A stretch of 34,487 nucleotides of DNA from Lysobacter antibioticus HS124 (GTDB lineage Bacteria; Pseudomonadota; Gammaproteobacteria; Xanthomonadales; Xanthomonadaceae), in contig NZ_HG424569.1 of assembly GCF_000336385.2 (NCBI RefSeq), positions 42,325 to 76,811 on the forward strand, read 5' to 3'. The translations under genes were made by a program, and so were the position numbers. Of this stretch, positions 10,004 to 26,391 are shown in pieces. The notes beneath the pieces were generated by a model. That model searched no databases. It was not told the DNA's origin and saw nothing but the letters and a program-made list of their open reading frames with translations. Position 1 is the stretch's first letter. Every line of letters starts with the position of its first letter.

Positions 10004-11878
10004 TCAGGACGCCAACCGCTCCGCCCCCCAGACCCGCACGCAGTCGCGGCCGTCGGCCTTGGCCAGATACAGCGCCTGATCGGCGAATTGCAGGGCCGCC
10101 TCCACCCCCAGATCCGCATCCGGCGCGATCTCGTGCACGCCGATGCTGGCGGTGACCGGGATGTCGCGGCTGCGGCTGGGGCAGGGCTGGGCGGTGAGGC
10201 GTTCGCGCAGTTCCTCGGCGACCCGGGCGCCGGCATCGAGATCGTGGTCGGGCAGCACGGCGACGAATTCCTCGCCGCCGAAACGCGCCAGCAGGGCGTG
10301 GTGCGGAATCAGCACCTGGGCGATCAGGCCCGCGGCCCAGCGCAGGCATTCGTCGCCGATCAGATGACCGTAGCGGTCGTTGATCTGCTTGAAGTGGTCC
10401 AGGTCGATCATCATCAGCACCAGCGGCCGGCGTTGGCGGCGCGAGCGGTGCAGCAGCGATTCGAAGGCCTCGCGGAAATGGCTGCGGTTGTGCAGGCCGG
10501 TCAGCGCGTCGCGCTGGCTGGTTTCGCGCAGCCGTTCGTGCGCGTCCTCGAGTTGGACCAGGGCCTGGCGCAGCTCCAGCGTGCGCAGCTCGACCTTGTG
10601 CTCGAGCTGGTCGCGCGCCTCGCGCACGATCCGCTCGTTCTCGCTGCGCAGCGACGAGTAGCGGTAGCCCAGGGCGACCGAAAGCAACAGCATTTCCAGG
10701 GCCGAGCCGATCTGCACCCCGTATTCGGTGATGAACATCTTCGGCAGCAGGTCGAAGGCGATCGCGGCGAACATGCCGGTGCCGAGCAGGAACGCCGACC
10801 ACGCCAGCAGGAACAGCCGCGCCGGCTTGTAGCCGCGGCGCATCGCGACCAGGCTCTCGACCGCGATCCAGGCGATGCTGACGAACACCGCAGCCGAGGC
10901 GATCGGGGTGGCCACGCGATAGGGCAGGCGGGGCGCGGCCAGGCCGAGCACCACGAAGAACGCGATCATCGCCAGGCCGACGTAGTCGCCGCCGCGCCAG
11001 CGTTGGCGCAGGCCGAGGAACTCGCGCGCGAACTGCTGCATGCCGATCTGGGCCAGGCAGATCGACAACGGCACCGAATGGTCGGCCAGCCAGGGCGACT
11101 GCGGCCACAGGTATTCGAAGCCCAGGCCGTTGAGGGTCAGCAACACCAGGCCGAAGGCGCAGATGTGGAACAGGTACCAGAAGTAGCTGGAGTCGCGCAG
11201 GCTCAGCCACAGCACCAGGTTGTAGAAGAACAACGCGGCGAGGATGCCGTAGTACAGGCCGATGCCGAGCTGAGCGTCGCGCGCCAGTTCGGTGAACGCG
11301 CTGGGGGTGTACAGGGTCAGCGGCACCTGCATCGAGCTTTGGCTGCGCACGCGTACGAACACGTCGACGGTCTCGCCGGCCGGCAGATCGATCCAGAAAT
11401 TCGGATGGCGGTAGCGGATCGCGCGCGCCGCGAACGGCAGGCTGTCGCCGCCGGCCTGGTAGGTCGCGACGCCGTCGGCGCCCGCGGTGTACACGTCGAG
11501 CCGGTCGCTGAGCGCGAACTCCTGCACCAGCAGCCAGCGCGGCACTTCGGCGTTGCGGTTGCGTACCGCGATGTGGAACCAGAATGCGCCAGGCTGGAAC
11601 CCGAACGAGTTGCGCCCGCCGGGCAGGGGCTGGAAGCGGCCGTCGAGCATCGCCTGGCGCGCGCCGTCGAGTTCCAGCCGGCCGCCCGGGTCGTGGTAGT
11701 AGGCGGTGAACGGCGCCAGCTCGACCGCGCGCGTGGCGCGGCCCAGGTCGAGCACGCTATGCGCCTGCGCCGGCAGGGACGCGGTGAGCAAGGTCCACGA
11801 CAGGGCGAGGCAGAACAGGCGGAGCGCCGCGGCAGCGCGGCGCAGGCGGACGGGCACGGCGGACTGGGTCGTGTTCAT
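10004..11878 (-). CDS. membrane diguanylate cyclase (7TMR-DISM-GGDEF)
   Basis: A 624-residue inner-membrane sensor that would make cyclic di-GMP from two GTP. Order: signal peptide to about residue 39 (LTASLPAQA), a periplasmic 7TMR-DISMED2-type beta domain (about 45-190, possibly carbohydrate-sensing), seven membrane helices (about 205-405), a coiled coil (about 410-455) and a GGDEF domain (about 456-615). The catalytic motif is intact as GGEEF at 534-538, with IDLDHFKQIND at 491-501. The product-inhibition I-site RxxD expected just upstream is replaced by PHHA, so feedback inhibition through that site should be absent. No EAL or HD-GYP domain is attached. It is divergent from the TrpR-like regulator. 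Confidence 0.95.
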   Translation of the reverse strand: MNTTQSAVPVRLRRAAAALRLFCLALSWTLLTASLPAQAHSVLDLGRATRAVELAPFTAYYHDPGGRLELDGARQAMLDGRFQPLPGGRNSFGFQPGAFWFHIAVRNRNAEVPRWLLVQEFALSDRLDVYTAGADGVATYQAGGDSLPFAARAIRYRHPNFWIDLPAGETVDVFVRVRSQSSMQVPLTLYTPSAFTELARDAQLGIGLYYGILAALFFYNLVLWLSLRDSSYFWYLFHICAFGLVLLTLNGLGFEYLWPQSPWLADHSVPLSICLAQIGMQQFAREFLGLRQRWRGGDYVGLAMIAFFVVLGLAAPRLPYRVATPIASAAVFVSIAWIAVESLVAMRRGYKPARLFLLAWSAFLLGTGMFAAIAFDLLPKMFITEYGVQIGSALEMLLLSVALGYRYSSLRSENERIVREARDQLEHKVELRTLELRQALVQLEDAHERLRETSQRDALTGLHNRSHFREAFESLLHRSRRQRRPLVLMMIDLDHFKQINDRYGHLIGDECLRWAAGLIAQVLIPHHALLARFGGEEFVAVLPDHDLDAGARVAEELRERLTAQPCPSRSRDIPVTASIGVHEIAPDADLGVEAALQFADQALYLAKADGRDCVRVWGAERLAS

Positions 11879-11998
11879 CTTCCATGGCGGTGACGGACGC
11901 AGGCCGTTGCGTCGCGCGGACGGGAGGCGCCCGCGGAGGGGGCGCGGGCAGGGCGTGTTCTGGGTCTTAACGCGATTCGCGGCCGGTTCAGGCCGGGC

Positions 11999-12027
11999 TT
12001 GACGATCTTCGCTGTGGCCGCTAATGT
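11999..12027 (+). promoter_or_regulatory. probable promoter of the TrpR-like gene and his operon
   Basis: A -35 box TTGACG (11999-12004, five of six consensus bases) and a -10 box TAATGT (12022-12027, keeping the key T, A and final T) are separated by exactly 17 bases. The expected start of transcription falls near 12034, inside the palindrome at 12022-12047. Confidence 0.62.
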
Positions 12028-12047
12028 ATTAACGCGTTAGTACATTA
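12022..12047. promoter_or_regulatory. 26-bp palindromic operator, likely for the TrpR-family regulator
   Basis: Two 13-base half-sites, TAATGTATTAACG and CGTTAGTACATTA, are inverse complements except at one symmetric position, so 24 of 26 bases are symmetric around ACGCGT. It is conspicuously A/T-rich in a GC-rich region and covers the -10 box and probable transcription start. A further TAATGCA half-site follows at 12046-12052. Location directly before a TrpR-family gene and the his operon makes autorepression and control by that protein the simplest reading. Seen: symmetry and position. Inferred: the ligand and regulator. Confidence 0.72.
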
Positions 12048-12115
12048 ATGCATTTGTGATCCGGTCGTCGGGTCTGGATGCGCCACTGCCTCGCAACGCC
12101 AGCCGAATCTCCTGC

Positions 12116-12427
12116 ATGAAGCGCCGCGCCACCGATCTCGACCAAAGCCAGGACGCGCTCGCCGATCTGGCCGACGCTTTCGCCGGATTGCGCAGCGCCG
12201 AGCAGGTGCGGGCCTTCCTGGAAGACCTGTGCACGCCGGCCGAGCTGGAAGCGATGAGCGACCGCTGGCGGGTCGTGCCGTTGCTGGAGCAGGGCGTGCC
12301 TTATCGCGAGATCCACGACCGCACCCAGGTCAGCGTGACCACCATCGGCCGCGTCGCGCGCGTGCTCGAGCGCGGTGCCGGCGGCTACGCCGCGGCCCTG
12401 CACCGCCGCCCCGGCCGACACCGCTGA
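12116..12427 (+). CDS. TrpR/YerC-YecD family repressor, probable his operon regulator
   Basis: A 103-residue all-helical DNA-binding protein of the TrpR-like YerC/YecD family. The family core is visible: FLEDLCTPAELEAMSDRW (about residues 34-51), then LLEQGVPYREIHDRT-VSVTTIGRVAR, which forms the helix-turn-helix (about 56-82). I start at ATG 12116, giving the usual family length of about 100; a GTG at 12056 would add a non-conserved leader. No good ribosome binding site is seen at either. It sits 96 bases before hisG in the same direction, below a promoter covered by a palindrome. TrpR itself senses tryptophan; here histidine is the more likely co-repressor, an inference from context. Confidence 0.88.
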   Translation: MKRRATDLDQSQDALADLADAFAGLRSAEQVRAFLEDLCTPAELEAMSDRWRVVPLLEQGVPYREIHDRTQVSVTTIGRVARVLERGAGGYAAALHRRPGRHR

Positions 12428-12523
12428 TCGCGCTCTGCGCGTCGCGGCCCCTGCGCCGCGGCCCGCGTCAGTTCCCTCCTTGTCCGTTAGCCGCTCGCCC
12501 CGCATCCCCACCGAGACCCGTCC

Positions 12524-13438
12524 ATGAGCCCTCCCGCCAGCGCCGTCGCGCGTGACCGCCTGCGCATCGCGATCCAGAAGTCCGGCCGCCTCGCCGACCC
12601 GGCGCGCGCCCTGCTGAGCGCCTGCGGCCTGAGCTGGCGCGAAAGCCGCGACCGCCTGTTCTGCTACGGCGAGACCTTGCCGGTCGACCTGCTGCTGGTG
12701 CGCGACGACGACATCCCGGGGTTGATCGCCGATGGGGTCTGCGATCTCGGCGTGGTCGGCCGCAACGTGCTGCTGGAACAGGACGGCGATCGCCGCGGCA
12801 ACGGCCGCGCGGCGGCGTTCCGCGAGTGGCGTCCGCTCGGGTTCGGCGCTTGCCGGCTGGCGATCGCGGTGCCCGACGCCTGGCACTGGGAAGGGCCGCA
12901 GCAGCTCACCGGCAAGCGCATCGCCACCAGCTACCCGGCATTGCTGAGCCAATGGTTGGCCGAGCAGCGCATCGAGGCGCAGGTGGTGCTGCTGTCGGGG
13001 TCGGTCGAGATCGCGCCGCGCCTGGGCCAGGCCGAGGCGATCTGCGACCTGGTCTCCAGCGGCGCGACCCTGGCGGCTAACCAGCTCAAGGCGGTGCAGA
13101 CCCTGGTCGAAAGCGAGGCGGTGCTGGCCGGCCCGGTCGAACGGTTCGACGACGTCCGCGGCGAACTGGCCGACCTGTTGCTGCGCCGGCTCGACGGCGC
13201 GATGCGGGTGCGCAACAGCAAGCTGCTGATGTTCCAGGCCCCGCGCGACCTGCTCGACGAACTGCTGCCGCTGCTGCCGGACGCCGAGGCGCCGACGGTG
13301 ATGCGCCTGGACAACGACGACAGTGTCGCCCTGCAGGCCTTGTGCCACGGCGCGGTGACCTGGCAGCGGCTGGAGGAACTCAAGCGCGCCGGCGCGCGTG
13401 GCCTGATGGTGCTGCCGGTGGAGGGCATGCTGGCATGA
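12524..13438 (+). CDS. hisG: ATP phosphoribosyltransferase (long form)
   Basis: First step of histidine biosynthesis: ATP + PRPP gives phosphoribosyl-ATP. At 304 residues it is the long form, carrying a C-terminal regulatory domain (about 225-300, from [15 protein letters not shown]) that allows histidine feedback inhibition without HisZ. The N-terminal catalytic half contains [11 protein letters not shown] (13-23) and [13 protein letters not shown] (74-86); the PRPP-binding region is [18 protein letters not shown] (about 170-187). First of eight contiguous his genes; its TGA overlaps the hisD ATG. No run of histidine codons or leader-peptide attenuator is visible upstream, consistent with repressor control. 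Confidence 0.97.
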
Positions 13439-14748
13439 GCGCGCGCATGCAACGTCTGCTTTGGAACGCATTGGACGAGGCCGCGCGCGAGCAGGCCCTG
13501 CGCCGCCCGGCGCAACAGACCCGCGCCGATACCGCCGCGGCGGTGGCGGAGATTCTCCAGGCGGTGCGCTGCGACGGCGATGCCGCCCTGCGCCGCTATG
13601 CCGAGCGCTTCGACGGCCGCGCGCCGGAGCGCTTCGCGGTGTCGGCCGGGGAGTTCGAACAGGCCGAACGCTCGTTGAGCCCGGCGCTGCGCTCGGCGAT
13701 CGACGAGGCCGGCGAGCGCATCGCCCGTTTCCACGAAGCCGGCATGACCCGGCCCTATGCCCTGGACACCGCCGAGGGCGTGCGCTGCGAACGCGTGCTG
13801 CGGCCGATCCGCCGGGTCGGCCTGTACGTGCCGGCCGGCTCGGCGCCGCTGCCCTCGACCGCGCTGATGTTGGGCGTGCCGGCGCAACTGGCCGGCTGCC
13901 CCGAGGTCGCCCTGTGCACGCCGCCGCGCGCCGACGGCAGCGCCGATCCGGCGGTGCTGTACGCCGCGCGCCGCTGCGGCATCGAGCGCGTGTACAAGCT
14001 CGGCGGCGCGCAAGCCATCGCCGCGATGGCCTTCGGCACCGCCAGCGTCGGCAAGTGCGACAAGCTGTTCGGGCCCGGCAACGCTTACGTCACCGAGGCC
14101 AAGCGCCAGGTCGCCCTGCTCGAGGGCGGGGCGGCGATCGATCTGCCGGCCGGCCCCTCCGAAGTGCTGGTGATCGCCGATGCCGGCGCACGCGCCGACT
14201 TCGTCGCCGCCGACCTGCTGTCGCAGGCCGAACACGGCCCGGATTCGCAGGTGATCCTGCTCAGCGACGATGCGGCCCTGCTGGATGCGGTGGACGCCGA
14301 ACTCGAACGCCAGCTCGCGGTCTTGTCGCGCGCCGACACCGCGCGCGCCGCGCTGGGCGCGTCGCGCTCGATCCTGGTCGATTCGATCGACAGCGCGCTT
14401 GCGGTCAGCAACCGCTACGCGCCGGAACACCTGATCCTGGCCCTGCGCGACGCGCGCGCCTGGCTGGGCGAAGTCGAGGCCGCCGGTTCGGTGTTCCTCG
14501 GCGACTGGGCGCCGGAAGCGCTCGGCGATTACTGCAGCGGCACCAACCACGTGCTGCCGACCAGCGGTGCGGCGCGCTATGCCGGCGGCGTCAACGTGGC
14601 CAGCTTCCAGGTCGCGATCACGGTGCAGGAGGTGCAGCCGCAGGGCTTGCGCGCGATCGGCCCCTGCGCGGTCGAGCTGGCCACGGCCGAAGGCCTGGAC
14701 GCGCACCGCGAGGCGGTGGCGCTGCGCTTGCGCGCGGTGGCGGCATGA
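13435..14748 (+). CDS. hisD: histidinol dehydrogenase
   Basis: Catalyses the last two oxidations, L-histidinol to L-histidine, with NAD+ and zinc. 437 residues, close to the usual ~430. Zinc ligands and catalytic residues are visible by comparison with the E. coli enzyme: Gln264 and His267 ([12 protein letters not shown]), Glu331-His332 (YAPEHLIL), Asp365 ([13 protein letters not shown]) and His424 (LDAHREAV). NAD-binding stretch: [19 protein letters not shown] at 205-223. The ATG overlaps the hisG stop as ATGA; a second Met four codons later is also possible. The 3' end overlaps hisC the same way. Confidence 0.97.
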
Positions 14749-15875
14749 GCGATCAATCTTCGATGAGCGACCAGGCGATGAACGACGATCCGGTACTGCT
14801 GCTGCGCGAAGACTTGCGCGATTTCGCCGGCTACAGCTCGGCGCGCAGCGAAAAGCGCGACGGCCGGGTCTGGCTCAACGCCAACGAGGCGGCCTGGCCC
14901 AGCGTGGCCGACGGCGAAGGCGCGGTGCGCCGCTACCCCGATCAGCAGCCGGCGGCGCTGCGCGAGCGCCTGGCCCGGCTGTACGGCTGCGAGCCGCAGC
15001 AACTGCTGGCCGGGCGCGGCAGCGACGAGGCCATCGACCTGCTGGTACGGGCGCTGTGCCGCCCCGGCGGCGACGCGATCGCGATCACCCCGCCGACTTT
15101 CGGCATGTACGCGGTCTGCGCGCGCCTGCACGGCGTGCGCACCATCGAGGCGCCGCTGCGCGATACGCCCGACGGCTTCTCCTGCGATTTCGCCGCGCTC
15201 GCCGACACGGTCGAGCGCGAGGCGGTCAAGCTGGTGTTCCTGTGCTCGCCGGGCAATCCCTCCGGCAGCTTGTTGCCGTTGCCGCAGATCGCCGCTTTGG
15301 CGCGGCGCCTGCGCGGCCGCGCCCTGGTGGTGGTCGACGAGGCCTACATCGAGTTCGCCGAGGGCGCCTCGGCGGTGAGCCTGCTCGGCAGCGAACGCAA
15401 CATCGCCGTGCTGCGCACCCTGTCCAAGGCGCACGCATTGGCCGCGGCGCGGATCGGCACGGTGATCGCCGATGCCGGGCTGATCGCCGCGCTGCAGCGC
15501 TGCCAGGCGCCGTACCCGTTGCCGACCCCCTGCGTCGGTTTGGCCCTGCGCGCGCTGGCCGAAGTGCCCCTGAACACCACCAAGGCGCGCACCGCCACCG
15601 CGATGAGCGAGCGCGAGCGCCTGGCCGAGGCCTTGCGCGGCCTGCCCGGCGTGCGCCGGGTCTATCCCTCGCAGGCCAACTTCCTGCTGGTGCGCTTCGA
15701 CGACGCCCAGAGCGCGTTCGATGGCCTGCTCGACACCGGCGTGGTGGTGCGCGATGTGCGCGCCGCGCCGCAACTCGGCGATGCGCTGCGCATCAGCCTG
15801 GGCACGCCGGAGCAGAATGCCGCGGTGATCGAGGTGCTGAGCCGGATCGCGCGCCGGGCCGGAGTCGCGGCATGA
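14745..15875 (+). CDS. hisC: histidinol-phosphate aminotransferase
   Basis: PLP enzyme converting imidazole acetol-phosphate and glutamate to histidinol-phosphate. 376 residues, class I/II fold. The Schiff-base lysine is Lys228 ([15 protein letters not shown]), the PLP phosphate-binding turn is [11 protein letters not shown] (90-100), Asn171 lies in SPGNPSG, and Asp198-Tyr201 in VVDEAYIEF. The ATG at 14745 overlaps the hisD stop; internal Mets at residues 7 and 12 offer alternative starts. The family usually has TLSKAFGLAG; here it is AHALAA, a mild variation. Its stop overlaps the hisB ATG. Confidence 0.96.
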
Positions 15876-17029
15876 GCGCGGGCACGCCGATCCTGTTCGT
15901 CGATCGCGACGGCACCCTGATCGAAGAGCCGGCCGATTTCCAGATCGACAGCTACGCCAAACTGCGCTTCGTGCGCGGGGTGATCCCGGCGATGCTGAAG
16001 CTGCGCGACGCCGGCTACCAGTTCGTGATGGTCACCAACCAGGACGGCCTGGGCACCGAGTCCTATCCGCGCTGGAGCTTCGACGGTCCGCACGAGCTGA
16101 TGATGCAGGTGTTCGAAAGCCAGGGCATCGTGTTCCGCGAGGTGTTGATCGACACCAGCTTCCCGGCCGAGAACCGGCCCACGCGCAAGCCCGGCATCGG
16201 CCTGGCGCTGCACTTGCTGAAAGACCGCAGCATCGATTGGCAGCGGTCGGCGATGGTCGGCGATCGCGAAACCGACAACGGCTTCGCCGCCAACCTCGGC
16301 GTCCGCGCGTTCCAACTGCGCACCGAGCAGTTCGGCGGCGAGTGGGACTGGGCCGGCATCGCCCACGCCTTGGCCGACCGGCCGCGCACCGCGCGGGTGC
16401 AGCGCAATACCCGCGAGACCCGGATCGAGGTCGCGCTGGACCTGGACCGCGCCGCCGAGCCGCGGGTCGCGACCGGGCTGGGTTTCTTCGACCACATGCT
16501 CGAGCAGATCGGCAAGCACGGCGGCTTCGCCCTGGAGCTGCGCTGCGAGGGCGACCTGCACATCGACGAGCACCACACCATCGAGGACAGCGCCCTGGCG
16601 TTGGGCCAGGCCCTGCGCGAGGCGCTGGGCGACAAGCGCGGCATCGGCCGTTACGGCTTCGACGCCGCGGCGGGCGGCGAGGGCGAAGGCGAAGGTGTTC
16701 AGGAAAAAAGCACACTTATTCGGCAGGCCGATGTCGTCTTGCCGATGGACGAGACCCTGGCGCGGGCCGCGCTGGATTTCTCCGGCCGGCCGTACTTCGT
16801 GTTCTCCGGCGCGTTCGCGCGCGAGCGCGTGGGGGATTTCCCTACCGAGCTGGTGGCGCACTTCTTCCGCTCGTTGTGCGAAACCGCCGGCCTGAACCTC
16901 AATCTGAACGTGGAAGGTGATAACGATCACCACAAGATTGAGGCATGCTTCAAGTCGGTGGCGCGTGCGCTGCGTCAGGCGATCCGTCGCGAAGGTCGCG
17001 AGCTGCCGAGTACGAAAGGGGTTCTGTAA
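15872..17029 (+). CDS. hisB: bifunctional histidinol-phosphatase / imidazoleglycerol-phosphate dehydratase
   Basis: Fused enzyme catalysing the sixth and eighth steps of the pathway. The N-terminal HAD phosphatase has nucleophile Asp11 and Asp13 ([11 protein letters not shown]), MVTNQDG (53-59), and MVGDRETD (128-135). The dehydratase half (about 175-385) has [14 protein letters not shown] (204-217), the manganese-binding [12 protein letters not shown] (234-245) and [11 protein letters not shown] (351-361), ending STKGVL as in E. coli. Unlike E. coli, where RFGF runs directly into VLPMDE, about 25 extra residues (264-288; [11 protein letters not shown] then [10 protein letters not shown]) are inserted. 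Their codons are A/T-rich (around 16696-16725), unlike the rest of the gene. Ends in TAA overlapping the hisH ATG. Confidence 0.96.
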
Positions 17030-17640
17030 TGACGTGGGTGGTAGTAGTGGATTCGGGGGGGGGGAACGTCGGCTCGGTGCGTTATGCATTGGAGCGGTTG
17101 GGCGCGCGTTCGATCCTGAGCGCGGACCCAGCGACGATCGCCTCCGCCGATCGCGTGATCCTGCCGGGCGTGGGCGCCGCCGCCCCCGCCATGGCGCGTC
17201 TGCGCGAGCGAGGCCTGATCGACCCGATCCGCCGCTTGCAACAGCCCTTGCTCGGGATCTGCCTGGGAATGCAGCTGTTGTACGAGTCCTCGGAGGAGGG
17301 CGAGGTGGAATGCCTCGGCCTGCTTCCGGGCCGTATCACCCGACTGCCATCAGGACCAGGAGTGCGTGTGCCACACATGGGCTGGAACCTCCTCCGCCAA
17401 CGCGCGCCGCGAGACCGCGGCGACGCCCTGCTCGCCGGGCTCGGCGAGCGCGACCAGGCCTATTTCGTCCACAGCTACGCCGCACCGGTGACCCAGGACA
17501 CCCTGGCCAGCGCCCGCTACGGCGTCGACTTCACCGCCGTGGCCGGGCGCGGCAACTGCTACGGCGCCCAGTTCCACCCCGAACGCTCCGCCGCGGTCGG
17601 TTCGCGCCTGCTCGCGAACTTCCTGGCCCTGGAGGGGTGA
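17029..17640 (+). CDS. hisH: imidazole glycerol phosphate synthase, glutamine amidotransferase subunit
   Basis: Releases ammonia from glutamine and channels it to HisF. 203 residues with a complete class I amidotransferase triad: Cys78 ([11 protein letters not shown]), His183 and Glu185 (GAQFHPERS). The oxyanion strand PGVGA is at 46-50. The start ATG overlaps the hisB TAA. Codons 10-12 are three consecutive GGG giving a run of ten G (17055-17064), a plausible slippage site near the start of an essential pathway gene. The first ~110 codons use more A/T-ending codons (GTA, CCA, TCA, GGA) than the rest. Two bases separate it from hisA. Confidence 0.96.
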
Positions 17641-17642
17641 AC

Positions 17643-18392
17643 ATGGGCAACGCCACCTTGTATCCCGCGATCGACGTGCGCGACGGCCGGGTCGTGCGCC
17701 TGCACCAGGGCGACTACGCCCAGGAAACCCGCTACGAGACCGAACCGCTGGCGCTGGCCACCCGCTATGCCGAGGCCGGCGCCAAGTGGCTGCACCTGAT
17801 CGACCTGGACGCCGCCCGCTACGGCGGCTACACCCTGGCCCCGCTGCTGCGCGCGATCACCACCTCCAGCTGGATGCGGGTGCAGACCGGCGGCGGCGTG
17901 CGCAGCGAGGCCGACGTCGAGGCGATCCTCGACGCCGGCGCCGACCGGGTCGTGGTCGGCTCGCTGGCGGTGAAGGAGCCCGAGCAGGTGATCGGCTGGT
18001 TCCGCCGCTTCGGCACCGAACGCATCACCATCGCCCTGGACGTGCGCCAGGCCGGCGACGGCGGCTGGGAACTGCCGGTGGCGGGCTGGACCGAGGCCAG
18101 CGGCGCGCGCCTGGAGCCGGTGCTGGAGCGCTACGCCGGCGCCGGCCTGCGCCACCTGCTGTGCACCGACGTATCGCGCGACGGCACCATGGCCGGGCCC
18201 AACCTGGACCTGTACCGGCACCTACACACGATCGCGCCGCAGGTCCAGGTGCAGGCCTCCGGCGGGATCCGCGACATCGCCGACATCGTCGCCGCCGACG
18301 GCGTCGGCTGCAGCGGCGCGGTGCTCGGCAAGGCCCTGATCGAAGGCCGGTTCCAGCTCGGCGACGCGCTGCGCCAGGTGCGCCGATGCTGA
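17643..18392 (+). CDS. hisA: phosphoribosylformimino-AICAR-phosphate isomerase
   Basis: Amadori isomerase converting ProFAR to PRFAR. A 249-residue TIM barrel with general acid/base Asp11 ([14 protein letters not shown]) and Asp133 (ITIALDVR). Phosphate-binding loops are visible as QTGGGVRSE (81-89) and QASGGIRD. The [15 protein letters not shown] stretch is typical. It is paralogous to HisF, and shares DVRDGRVV with it. The last bases overlap the start of hisF (ATGCTGA). Confidence 0.97.
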
Positions 18393-19198
18393 ACGCCGCC
18401 GCGCCCGCGCCGAACCCGACCCCGCTGAGCCGGCGCATCGTGCCCTGCCTGGACGTGCGCGACGGCCGGGTGGTCAAGGGCGTGCGCTTCCGCGACCACG
18501 TCGACATGGGCGACATCGTCGAGCTGGCCCTGCGCTACCGCGACGAGGGCGCCGACGAACTGGTGTTCTACGACATCACCGCCAGCCCGCAGGGCCGCAG
18601 CGTCGACCGCGACTGGGTCGAGCGGGTCTCGCGCGCGATCGACATCCCGTTCTGCGTCGCCGGCGGCATCCGTTCGGTCGAGGACGCGCGCGGCGTGCTC
18701 AATGCCGGCGCCGACAAGATTTCGATCAACACGCCCGCACTGGAACGGCCGGCGCTGATCGGCGAGATCGCCGCCGAGTTCGGCGTGCAGTGCGTGGTGG
18801 TCGGCATCGACAGCCTGCGCGACCCCGACGGCGAATGGCGGGTGCGCCAGTACACCGGCGACCCCGACCGCACCCAGGCCCTGGCCCGGCGCACCCTGGA
18901 CTGGGTGGTCGAGGCGCAGCGCCTGGGCGCCGGCGAGATCGTGCTCAACTGCATGGGCAGCGACGGCGTGCGCGGCGGCTACGACATCGAACAACTGTCT
19001 GCGGTGCGGGCGGTATGCGAGGTGCCCCTGGTCGCCTCCGGCGGCGCCGGCGCGATCGAGCATTTCGGTGCGGTGTTCCGCGAAGCCGACGTCGACGCGG
19101 CCTTGGCGGCCAGCGTGTTCCACTCCGGCAGCATCCGCATTCCGGTCCTCAAGGCAGTGTTGCGAGAGCAGGGTGTCCCAGTCCGCGAACTCCAATGA
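18386..19198 (+). CDS. hisF: imidazole glycerol phosphate synthase, cyclase subunit
   Basis: Uses ammonia from HisH to convert PRFAR to imidazole glycerol phosphate and AICAR. 270 residues, about 12 longer than usual because of an N-terminal Ala/Pro-rich leader before [17 protein letters not shown]. Catalytic Asp23 (CLDV) and Asp142 (VGIDSLRD) are present. Phosphate loops are [11 protein letters not shown] (91-101) and VASGGAG. The start overlaps the hisA stop by 7 bases; the end overlaps hisIE by 26 bases. Confidence 0.97.
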
Positions 19199-19859
19199 CG
19201 CCGCCGCGTCCGGCCTGGACGCAGCGCAGATCGACGCCCTGGCCTGGGACAAGCAGGACGGCCTGTTGCCGGCGGTGATCCAGGACGCGGCGGACCTGCG
19301 CGTGCTGATGCTCGGCTACATGGACCGCGCCGCGCTCGACGCGACCCTGGCCAGCGGCCATGTGACCTTCTACAGCCGCAGCAAGCAGCGCCTGTGGACC
19401 AAGGGCGAAAGCTCCGGCCACTTTCTCGACCTGGTCTCGATCGAAACCGACTGCGACCGCGACACCTTGCTGGTGCGCGCGGTGCCGCACGGGCCGACCT
19501 GCCATCTCGGCCGGGTCAGCTGTTTTCCCGAGGCCCCCGGCGACGAGTTGGCCTTCCTCGGCGAACTCGACGAATTGATCGCCCGGCGCGAGCGCGAGCG
19601 TCCCGAGGGCAGCTACACCACCCACCTGTTCGCCAAGGGCGCGGCCGCGATCGCCAAGAAGGTCGGCGAAGAGGCGGTGGAGACCGCGCTGGCGGCGGTC
19701 GGCGAAGACGACGCGGCCTTATGCGCCGAAGCCGCCGACCTGTTGTTCCACCTGCAGGTGCTGTTGCGCGCGCGCGGCCTGTCGCTGGCCGACGCGGTCG
19801 CGGTGTTGCGCCAACGCCACGGCCAGCCGCATCGCGGCGCGCGCCGGCGCGAGGACTGA
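19173..19859 (+). CDS. hisI: bifunctional phosphoribosyl-AMP cyclohydrolase / phosphoribosyl-ATP pyrophosphatase
   Basis: HisIE fusion for the second and third steps of the pathway. Cyclohydrolase half (about 20-120): [16 protein letters not shown] followed by Asp93, Asp95 and Asp97 around Cys94, with Cys110 and Cys117 completing the usual zinc-site cysteines. Pyrophosphatase half (about 125-225): [25 protein letters not shown] and [17 protein letters not shown] 19173 is chosen because it leaves only a short Ser/Asn/Ala-rich leader; it lies inside the end of hisF. Last gene of the operon; 29 bases separate its stop from a convergent gene and no clear terminator hairpin is seen there. Confidence 0.95.
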
Positions 19860-26358: not shown

Positions 26359-26391
26359 AAACAAACGGCGACCGGGGCGGCCCGGTCGCCG
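26359..26391 (-). terminator. terminator of the first amino-acid permease gene
   Basis: An 11-bp perfect stem (CGGCGACCGGG / CCCGGTCGCCG) with a 4-base loop, followed on the minus strand by TTTGTTTG. It separates the permease gene from mtnB. Confidence 0.8.

Follow-up and report, generated by a model that had tools for sequence, protein, structure and literature searches.

The histidine genes of Lysobacter antibioticus HS124 are preceded by a small TrpR-like gene and by a palindrome that lies exactly over the predicted -10 box, which raises the question of whether this palindrome is the site at which the pathway is switched, and by which regulator. The sequence analysed, referred to here as the window, is a stretch of 34,487 bases (assembly GCF_000336385.2, contig NZ_HG424569.1, positions 42,325-76,811 of the forward strand) from a genome of 5.14 Mb, and all coordinates are given as positions within this window. 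HisR sites upstream of hisR-his operons have been predicted in Proteobacteria, the Xanthomonadales included (Ashniev et al. 2022, PMC9413887), so that the HisR system counts as already known and the window adds a further instance of it; the name HisR for the YerC regulator is taken from the same paper, whose main text does not name Lysobacter. The idea of an operator for this TrpR-like regulator, put forward in an earlier note on this DNA, is therefore not new. We propose that the palindrome is very probably the operator of HisR, a TrpR-family repressor which, probably when bound to histidine, would shut off hisR-hisGDCBHAF(IE), and that this operator would be occupied as a tandem array.

Gene content of the hisR-his locus

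The regulatory gene hisR (12116..12427, plus strand) encodes a YerC/YecD family TrpR-related repressor of 103 aa. This identity, already suggested by the earlier note, was borne out by matches to TIGR02531 (59.4 bits, cut-off 42.2) and to the Trp_repressor domain PF01371 (87.9 bits, the sole PF01371 match in the genome); the score against the TrpR model TIGR01321 (29.7 bits) is below its cut-off of 67.25. The solved structures that match HisR by sequence are Trp-repressor-like (3kor, 3frw and 3g1c), and the recognition stretch reads VSVTTIGR in the HisR protein described here, compared with astatisr in the YerC-like 3kor. The nearest named relatives are from Lysobacter, with 86% identity to L. 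antibioticus. An in-frame GTG start at 12056 was disfavoured, as the relatives align from the M at 12116 and mostly begin with ATGAA.

Downstream and on the same strand are located hisG, the first his enzyme gene (12524..13438; TIGR00070, 172.1 bits, cut-off 75.75), and seven ORFs corresponding to hisD, hisC, hisB, hisH, hisA, hisF and hisIE (13342..19859), each scoring above its NCBIfam cut-off; the coordinates of the his ORFs are those of the ORF listing, with unrefined starts. hisR comes first and adjoins hisG, a placement that characterises hisR in Proteobacteria, and hisIE forms the far end of the operon. In all 80 named relatives hisG is likewise found just downstream of hisR and on the same strand. 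Divergently from hisR runs a gene for a 7TMR-DISM/GGDEF diguanylate cyclase (10004-11878, minus strand). Control of this gene by the operator was not adopted: on the minus strand, no -35-like hexamer stands at a distance of 16-18 bases from the right arm, and a GGDEF relative, upstream and in the opposite direction, is present in 47 of the 80 relatives' stretches.

Promoter and operator

The promoter region, as read directly on the plus strand, is comprised of a -35-like hexamer TTGACG (11999..12004), a spacer of 17 nt (12005-12021) and a -10-like hexamer TAATGT (12022..12027), the predicted -10 box, which is at the same time the left arm of the palindrome. The predicted operator, TAATGTATTAACGCGTTAGTACATTA, covers 26 bp (12022..12047), is symmetric at 24 of its 26 positions and is kept in relatives. 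The earlier note had described hexamers, spacer and palindrome in the same terms, and re-reading of 11999-12047 returned the same letters. Within the operator, the central 20-bp dyad TGTATTAACGCGTTAGTACA (12025..12044) agrees with the pattern YG-N3-TA-N6-TA-N3-CR at 8/8 positions. Compared by eye with the HisR motif predicted for Proteobacteria, TGTAnTArnnnnyTnTTACA (PMC9413887), it is one base off, with G for T at motif position 16. A second dyad, CGCGTTAGTACATTAATGCA (12033..12052), overlaps the central one, lies 8 bp downstream of it and also scores 8/8. It includes the half-like element TAATGCA (12046-12052), for which the earlier note had suggested tandem binding; the element completes this second dyad and takes its place in a conserved 8-bp pattern, which supports that suggestion. 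A third dyad position, 8 bp upstream of the central one (12017..12036), is weak in this genome (6/8). The outer half-site is also overlapped by a four-codon ORF, ATG-CAT-TTG-TGA (Met-His-Leu-stop, 12048-12059), which is probably due to chance.

Scanning of the 5.14-Mb genome for further sites, a check that the earlier note had proposed, revealed no second place within 3 mismatches of the 26-mer. Allowing up to 2 mismatches, the 20-bp pattern was found at six places in the genome, compared with three for the reversed control; since the reversed control gives three, the five further places are near chance level, and the closest of them (1 mismatch, on contig C34) has no 8-bp neighbours, so that all five were rejected as operators. 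Only one other 26-mer of the window is symmetric at 24 of 26 positions, a GC-rich inverted repeat at 26366-26391 which is perhaps a terminator.

Conservation of the operator in relatives and in the host family

When the upstream regions of the window and its 80 named relatives were compared, the outer TGTA/TACA was found to keep at least 7 of its 8 bases in 78 of the 81 regions; in two others 6 bases remain, and in one (L023) a site cannot be recognised. On the strength of this conservation the palindrome is taken as real, and the earlier note's check for its presence in relatives came out in its favour. The 24-bp consensus AATGTANTARCRCRYTANTACATT, with up to 3 mismatches, is present upstream of hisR in 76 of the 80 relatives and nowhere else in those stretches. 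Two of the hisR-hisG loci near those of Lysobacter are filed under other organisms, L008 in a Tolypothrix record and L023 in a Thermoanaerobaculia MAG record, and probably represent assembly contamination.

Among the 149 genomes of the host family, 137 possess hisR. The operator consensus was found in 130 of these 137 and in none of the 12 without hisR, with a maximum of one match per strand per genome, and a reversed-pattern control matched none of the 149. Within the fetched hisR stretches, the best match has at most 3 mismatches in 130 of the 137 and between 4 and 7 in the other seven; after dropping G018 (7 mismatches) and G007 (5), the aligned family set consisted of 135 sites from 48 genera. 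Conservation inside the 24 bp of this set is partly the result of selection, since the anchoring pattern allowed 4 mismatches, an effect of which the flanks are free.

Two positions of the -35 box

At 111 of the 135 family sites, -35-like letters (TTGA, TTGC, TTGT or GTGAC) are located 19-26 bases before the operator, and 21 of these 111 also carry such letters next to it; at 20 sites they were found only abutting the operator, and at four in neither place. The strict TTGAC shows the same two places, with 87 of the 135 at -26 to -23, 16 at -7 to -4, and two elsewhere within 55 bases. Both registers occur within single genera (e.g. g28, g7 and g32). Relative to the fixed operator, the -35 box thus has two alternative positions, separated by about 19 bp, and presumably the promoter shifts by this distance, its -10 being supplied by TAATGT of the left arm or else by the right arm.

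Overlapping dyads at 8-bp steps

TrpR binds tandem operators with its dimers at 8-bp steps, as Lawson and Carey are said to have described in 1993. The window contains overlapping dyads of this TrpR type, scoring 8/8 at 12025 and 12033, and instead of a single site there appear to be two or three that overlap at a spacing of 8 bases. The flanks of the family sites display the same spacing. The genus-mean frequency of TG at -5/-4 is 0.50, compared with 0-0.11 at 18 other offsets tested (111 sites with the far -35), and that of C-R at +29/+30 is 0.63, compared with 0.01-0.36 at 20 other offsets (86 sites whose start codon is at position 33 or beyond; with the start at 38 or beyond, n = 48, C-R is at 0.52). 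These outer elements are the inner TG and CA shifted outward by exactly 8 bp. Scored along the 135 family sites, the 20-bp dyad peaks at offsets -5, 3 and 11, with means of 7.01, 7.84 and 6.53 of 8, and the next value, 4.22, belongs to another 8-bp step. The left (upstream) dyad position reaches at least 7/8 in 0.70 of the family sites (genus-balanced mean). Overlapping dyads also account for the conservation of the centre C-R-C-R. The arrays differ in extent, with both neighbours at 53 of the 135 sites, the left one only at 38, the right one only at 22, none at 17, and a longer array at five.

Since the dyad motif was derived from the family set, it was tested on 46 loci of 17 families outside it. 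Weak TIGR02531 matches below the cut-off (L238-L241 and L263-L274) and same-family loci were excluded, and hisR genomes of the host order outside the host family entered only with fetched loci. An 8/8 dyad is present in 36 of the 46 loci, and 34 of these 36, from 15 families and including 13 loci of a single family, have a neighbouring dyad 8 bp away that scores 7/8 or better; neighbours at 16 bp were found in five of the 36, and at other shifts up to 20 there are none. Counting the first site per locus, 33 of 36 have a neighbour where 0.99 was expected under a null in which those bases left free in the 36-bp stretch are redrawn at local composition, a null that preserves base composition only and not dinucleotides; for the family set the same null gives 3.0 expected against 101 of 116 observed. 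Outside the family, arrays of two dyads (19 loci) and of three (14) are found beside three loci with one. Based on these patterns, we consider it rather likely that gammaproteobacterial HisR operators are in general arrays for two to three dimers at 8-bp steps, with a promoter that slides by about 19 bp and uses either arm as its -10. If true, 8-bp arrays would represent a DNA-reading mode common to the TrpR superfamily.

Genomes lacking hisR

The 12 hisR-less genomes of the host family (G002, G003, G030, G034, G037, G047, G054, G075, G082, G102, G114 and G142) all lack a hisG match as well. Because the whole unit is lost, hisG included, the contrast with these genomes is on its own no proof of a link between hisR and the operator, and its use as such was withdrawn; the joint absence suggests repeated loss of histidine synthesis, four of the 12 being less than 90% complete. 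In the host order, a TIGR02531 match is missing from 26 of 151 genomes, 20 of which were queried, and 15 of these 20 have kept hisG. All 15 belong to family f253, in which two other genomes (G851 and G919) possess hisR, and the hisR-less condition of these order-mates may go back to a single event. The operator is absent near hisG in all 15 and absent from the hisG contig; two 3-mismatch matches in hisR-less order genomes are located on contigs other than that of hisG, while 7 of the 20 genomes contain a match to the reversed control. In seven of 16 hisR-less stretches, hisG is preceded by isolated 7/8 dyads, five of them at -63 to -69, and none of them has an 8-bp neighbour.

Leader ORFs with a run of at least three consecutive His codons are present within 300 bases before hisG in 12 of the 14 full hisR-less loci; in 80 hisR loci, the 250 bases ahead of hisR hold none. 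The two sets compared differ in searched length and in base composition. The hisG fragments L313 and L314, both from one genome and outside the 14 full loci, have no leader. Two His-run ORFs in series were found in nine hisR-less loci (L300, L301, L303, L304 and L306-L310, at about -290 and -130), which are possible tandem his attenuators. The Rfam His_leader model gave sub-threshold matches (E 0.09-0.13) to three of the hisR-less loci. For the window, an RNA leader or attenuator of the RF00514 type was rejected, as Rfam returned no match at E up to 1 between 11500 and 12700 and no His-run ORF lies upstream of hisR; the earlier note had likewise seen no his leader-peptide attenuator. Because the operator is absent and His-run leaders are present where hisR is missing and hisG kept, it seems that, in the host order, control by a leader peptide can take the place of the repressor with its operator and vice versa, with the caution that f253 may represent one event. 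Such a swap between a protein repressor and an RNA leader on the his operon is a natural case for asking why one supplants the other.

Proposed mode of repression and alternative explanations

In the mechanism that we propose, HisR dimers, probably charged with histidine, would sit next to one another on the DNA that holds the -10 box and the expected start, one dimer each on the central dyad (12025-12044) and on the second (12033-12052), as in TrpR. Bound HisR would exclude RNA polymerase, so that expression of hisR, by autorepression, and of the pathway would drop in concert; under histidine shortage HisR would leave and both hisR and the his genes would rise. The analysis shows the sequence, its conservation, its linkage to hisR and the 8-bp pattern; from these we infer that HisR binds here as tandem dimers and represses, and that hisR and the his genes share one transcript. 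Histidine is put forward as the co-repressor by extrapolation from HisR of the Firmicute Ruminococcus gnavus (R. gnavus), for which histidine-dependent DNA binding was shown (PMC9413887); the difference in recognition stretch from the YerC-like 3kor counts as a caveat. In one X. citri transcriptome, the Trp-repressor-like XAC1827 (-2.41) falls together with hisG (-2.32) and hisD (-2.02) (PMC6337780), a co-variation from hisG onward which fits one operon.

The outer bases could also be read as belonging to one long dyad bound by a single HisR dimer, with the outer TG/CA touched by flexible N-terminal arms or aiding bending, and with no tandem binding. In the family sites they share the palindrome's centre of symmetry, and a basic arm, M-K-x-R, starts 130 of 133 family HisR proteins (the K partly by construction, as start codons were sought with A-A following them; the R not). 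Against the tandem reading itself weighs that the outer elements coincide, left with right, at 56 sites, little above the 49 or so expected under independence (74 left and 89 right, of 135), and that pairing across the dyad at the outer positions is 0.55 versus 0.45 and 0.51 versus 0.40 with shuffled partners, a modest excess much like that at the adjoining positions. However, the size and side of the arrays vary both in the family and outside it, and neighbours occur solely at 8 or 16 bp; since arrays of two dyads would not be expected from a single long dyad of fixed size, this reading is weakened and we hold it to be unlikely.

In a second alternative, HisR would sense tryptophan or another amino acid and cross-regulate the his operon instead of answering histidine. 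Proteobacterial HisR is the branch nearest to TrpR, with a motif that resembles that of TrpR (PMC9413887), but hisG follows hisR in 80 of 80 relatives, every family genome has at most one operator match per strand, and Firmicute HisR requires histidine for binding (PMC9413887), which makes such a ligand quite improbable. Even less credence is given to the palindrome acting mainly in the RNA, where it would form a terminator or 5' hairpin, or serving a different regulator, its place beside hisR being incidental. A palindrome in a leader can form a hairpin; however, Rfam is empty at E up to 1 for 11500-12700, the site is missing near hisG where hisR is absent and hisG kept, and the operator stays put while the -35 has two alternative positions some 19 bp from each other, so that the location of the operator within the transcript varies. 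We regard this last explanation as highly implausible.

Relation to known systems

With E. coli TrpR, the system described here shares the protein family, the palindromic operator, autoregulation (here proposed) and the 8-bp tandem layout, and it differs in its target, the his operon, in its half-site and in its presumed ligand, histidine. A his operon attenuator, composed of a leader peptide and a terminator, serves the same need, the setting of his genes by histidine supply, but is RNA-based; leader peptides are found in hisR-less order-mates and not in the window. The TrpR motif used for comparison is that printed in PMC9413887. The HisR (YerC) regulon of that paper is similar in that its his operon opens with a TrpR-family gene and has a palindrome immediately upstream of it; its HisR site is a 20-bp palindrome with an unconserved centre, whereas here the centre C-R-C-R and the outer YG/CR are conserved. 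Mentions of tandem sites, half-sites and cooperativity in its main text, supplements aside, concern His codons, T-boxes and TrpR rather than HisR sites. The available text of PMC5343134, on TrpR regulons, holds nothing on the hisR gene and does not contain the word Xanthomonadales, and that of PMC6956189, on his and trp auxotrophs, likewise holds nothing on hisR. No description of tandem HisR sites was found in the literature searched, which comprised few subscription journals and no supplements. The sites from 48 genera of the host family lend strong comparative support to a predicted histidine repressor whose shown binding is from a Firmicute only (PMC9413887), and they lead to the prediction of tandem HisR binding at the 8-bp spacing of TrpR.

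Loci with diverging sites

The 10 of 46 outside-family loci that have no 8/8 dyad comprise five alphaproteobacterial loci of one family, the alphaproteobacterial L255, and L283, L287, L295 and L298. Because the dyad differs there, the specificity of HisR may have shifted in one alphaproteobacterial family, represented by L249, L251, L252 and L254. Upstream of hisR in these four loci we observed a dyad of the approximate form GTTCCA-N14-TGGAAC, located shortly after TTGAC or TTGC.
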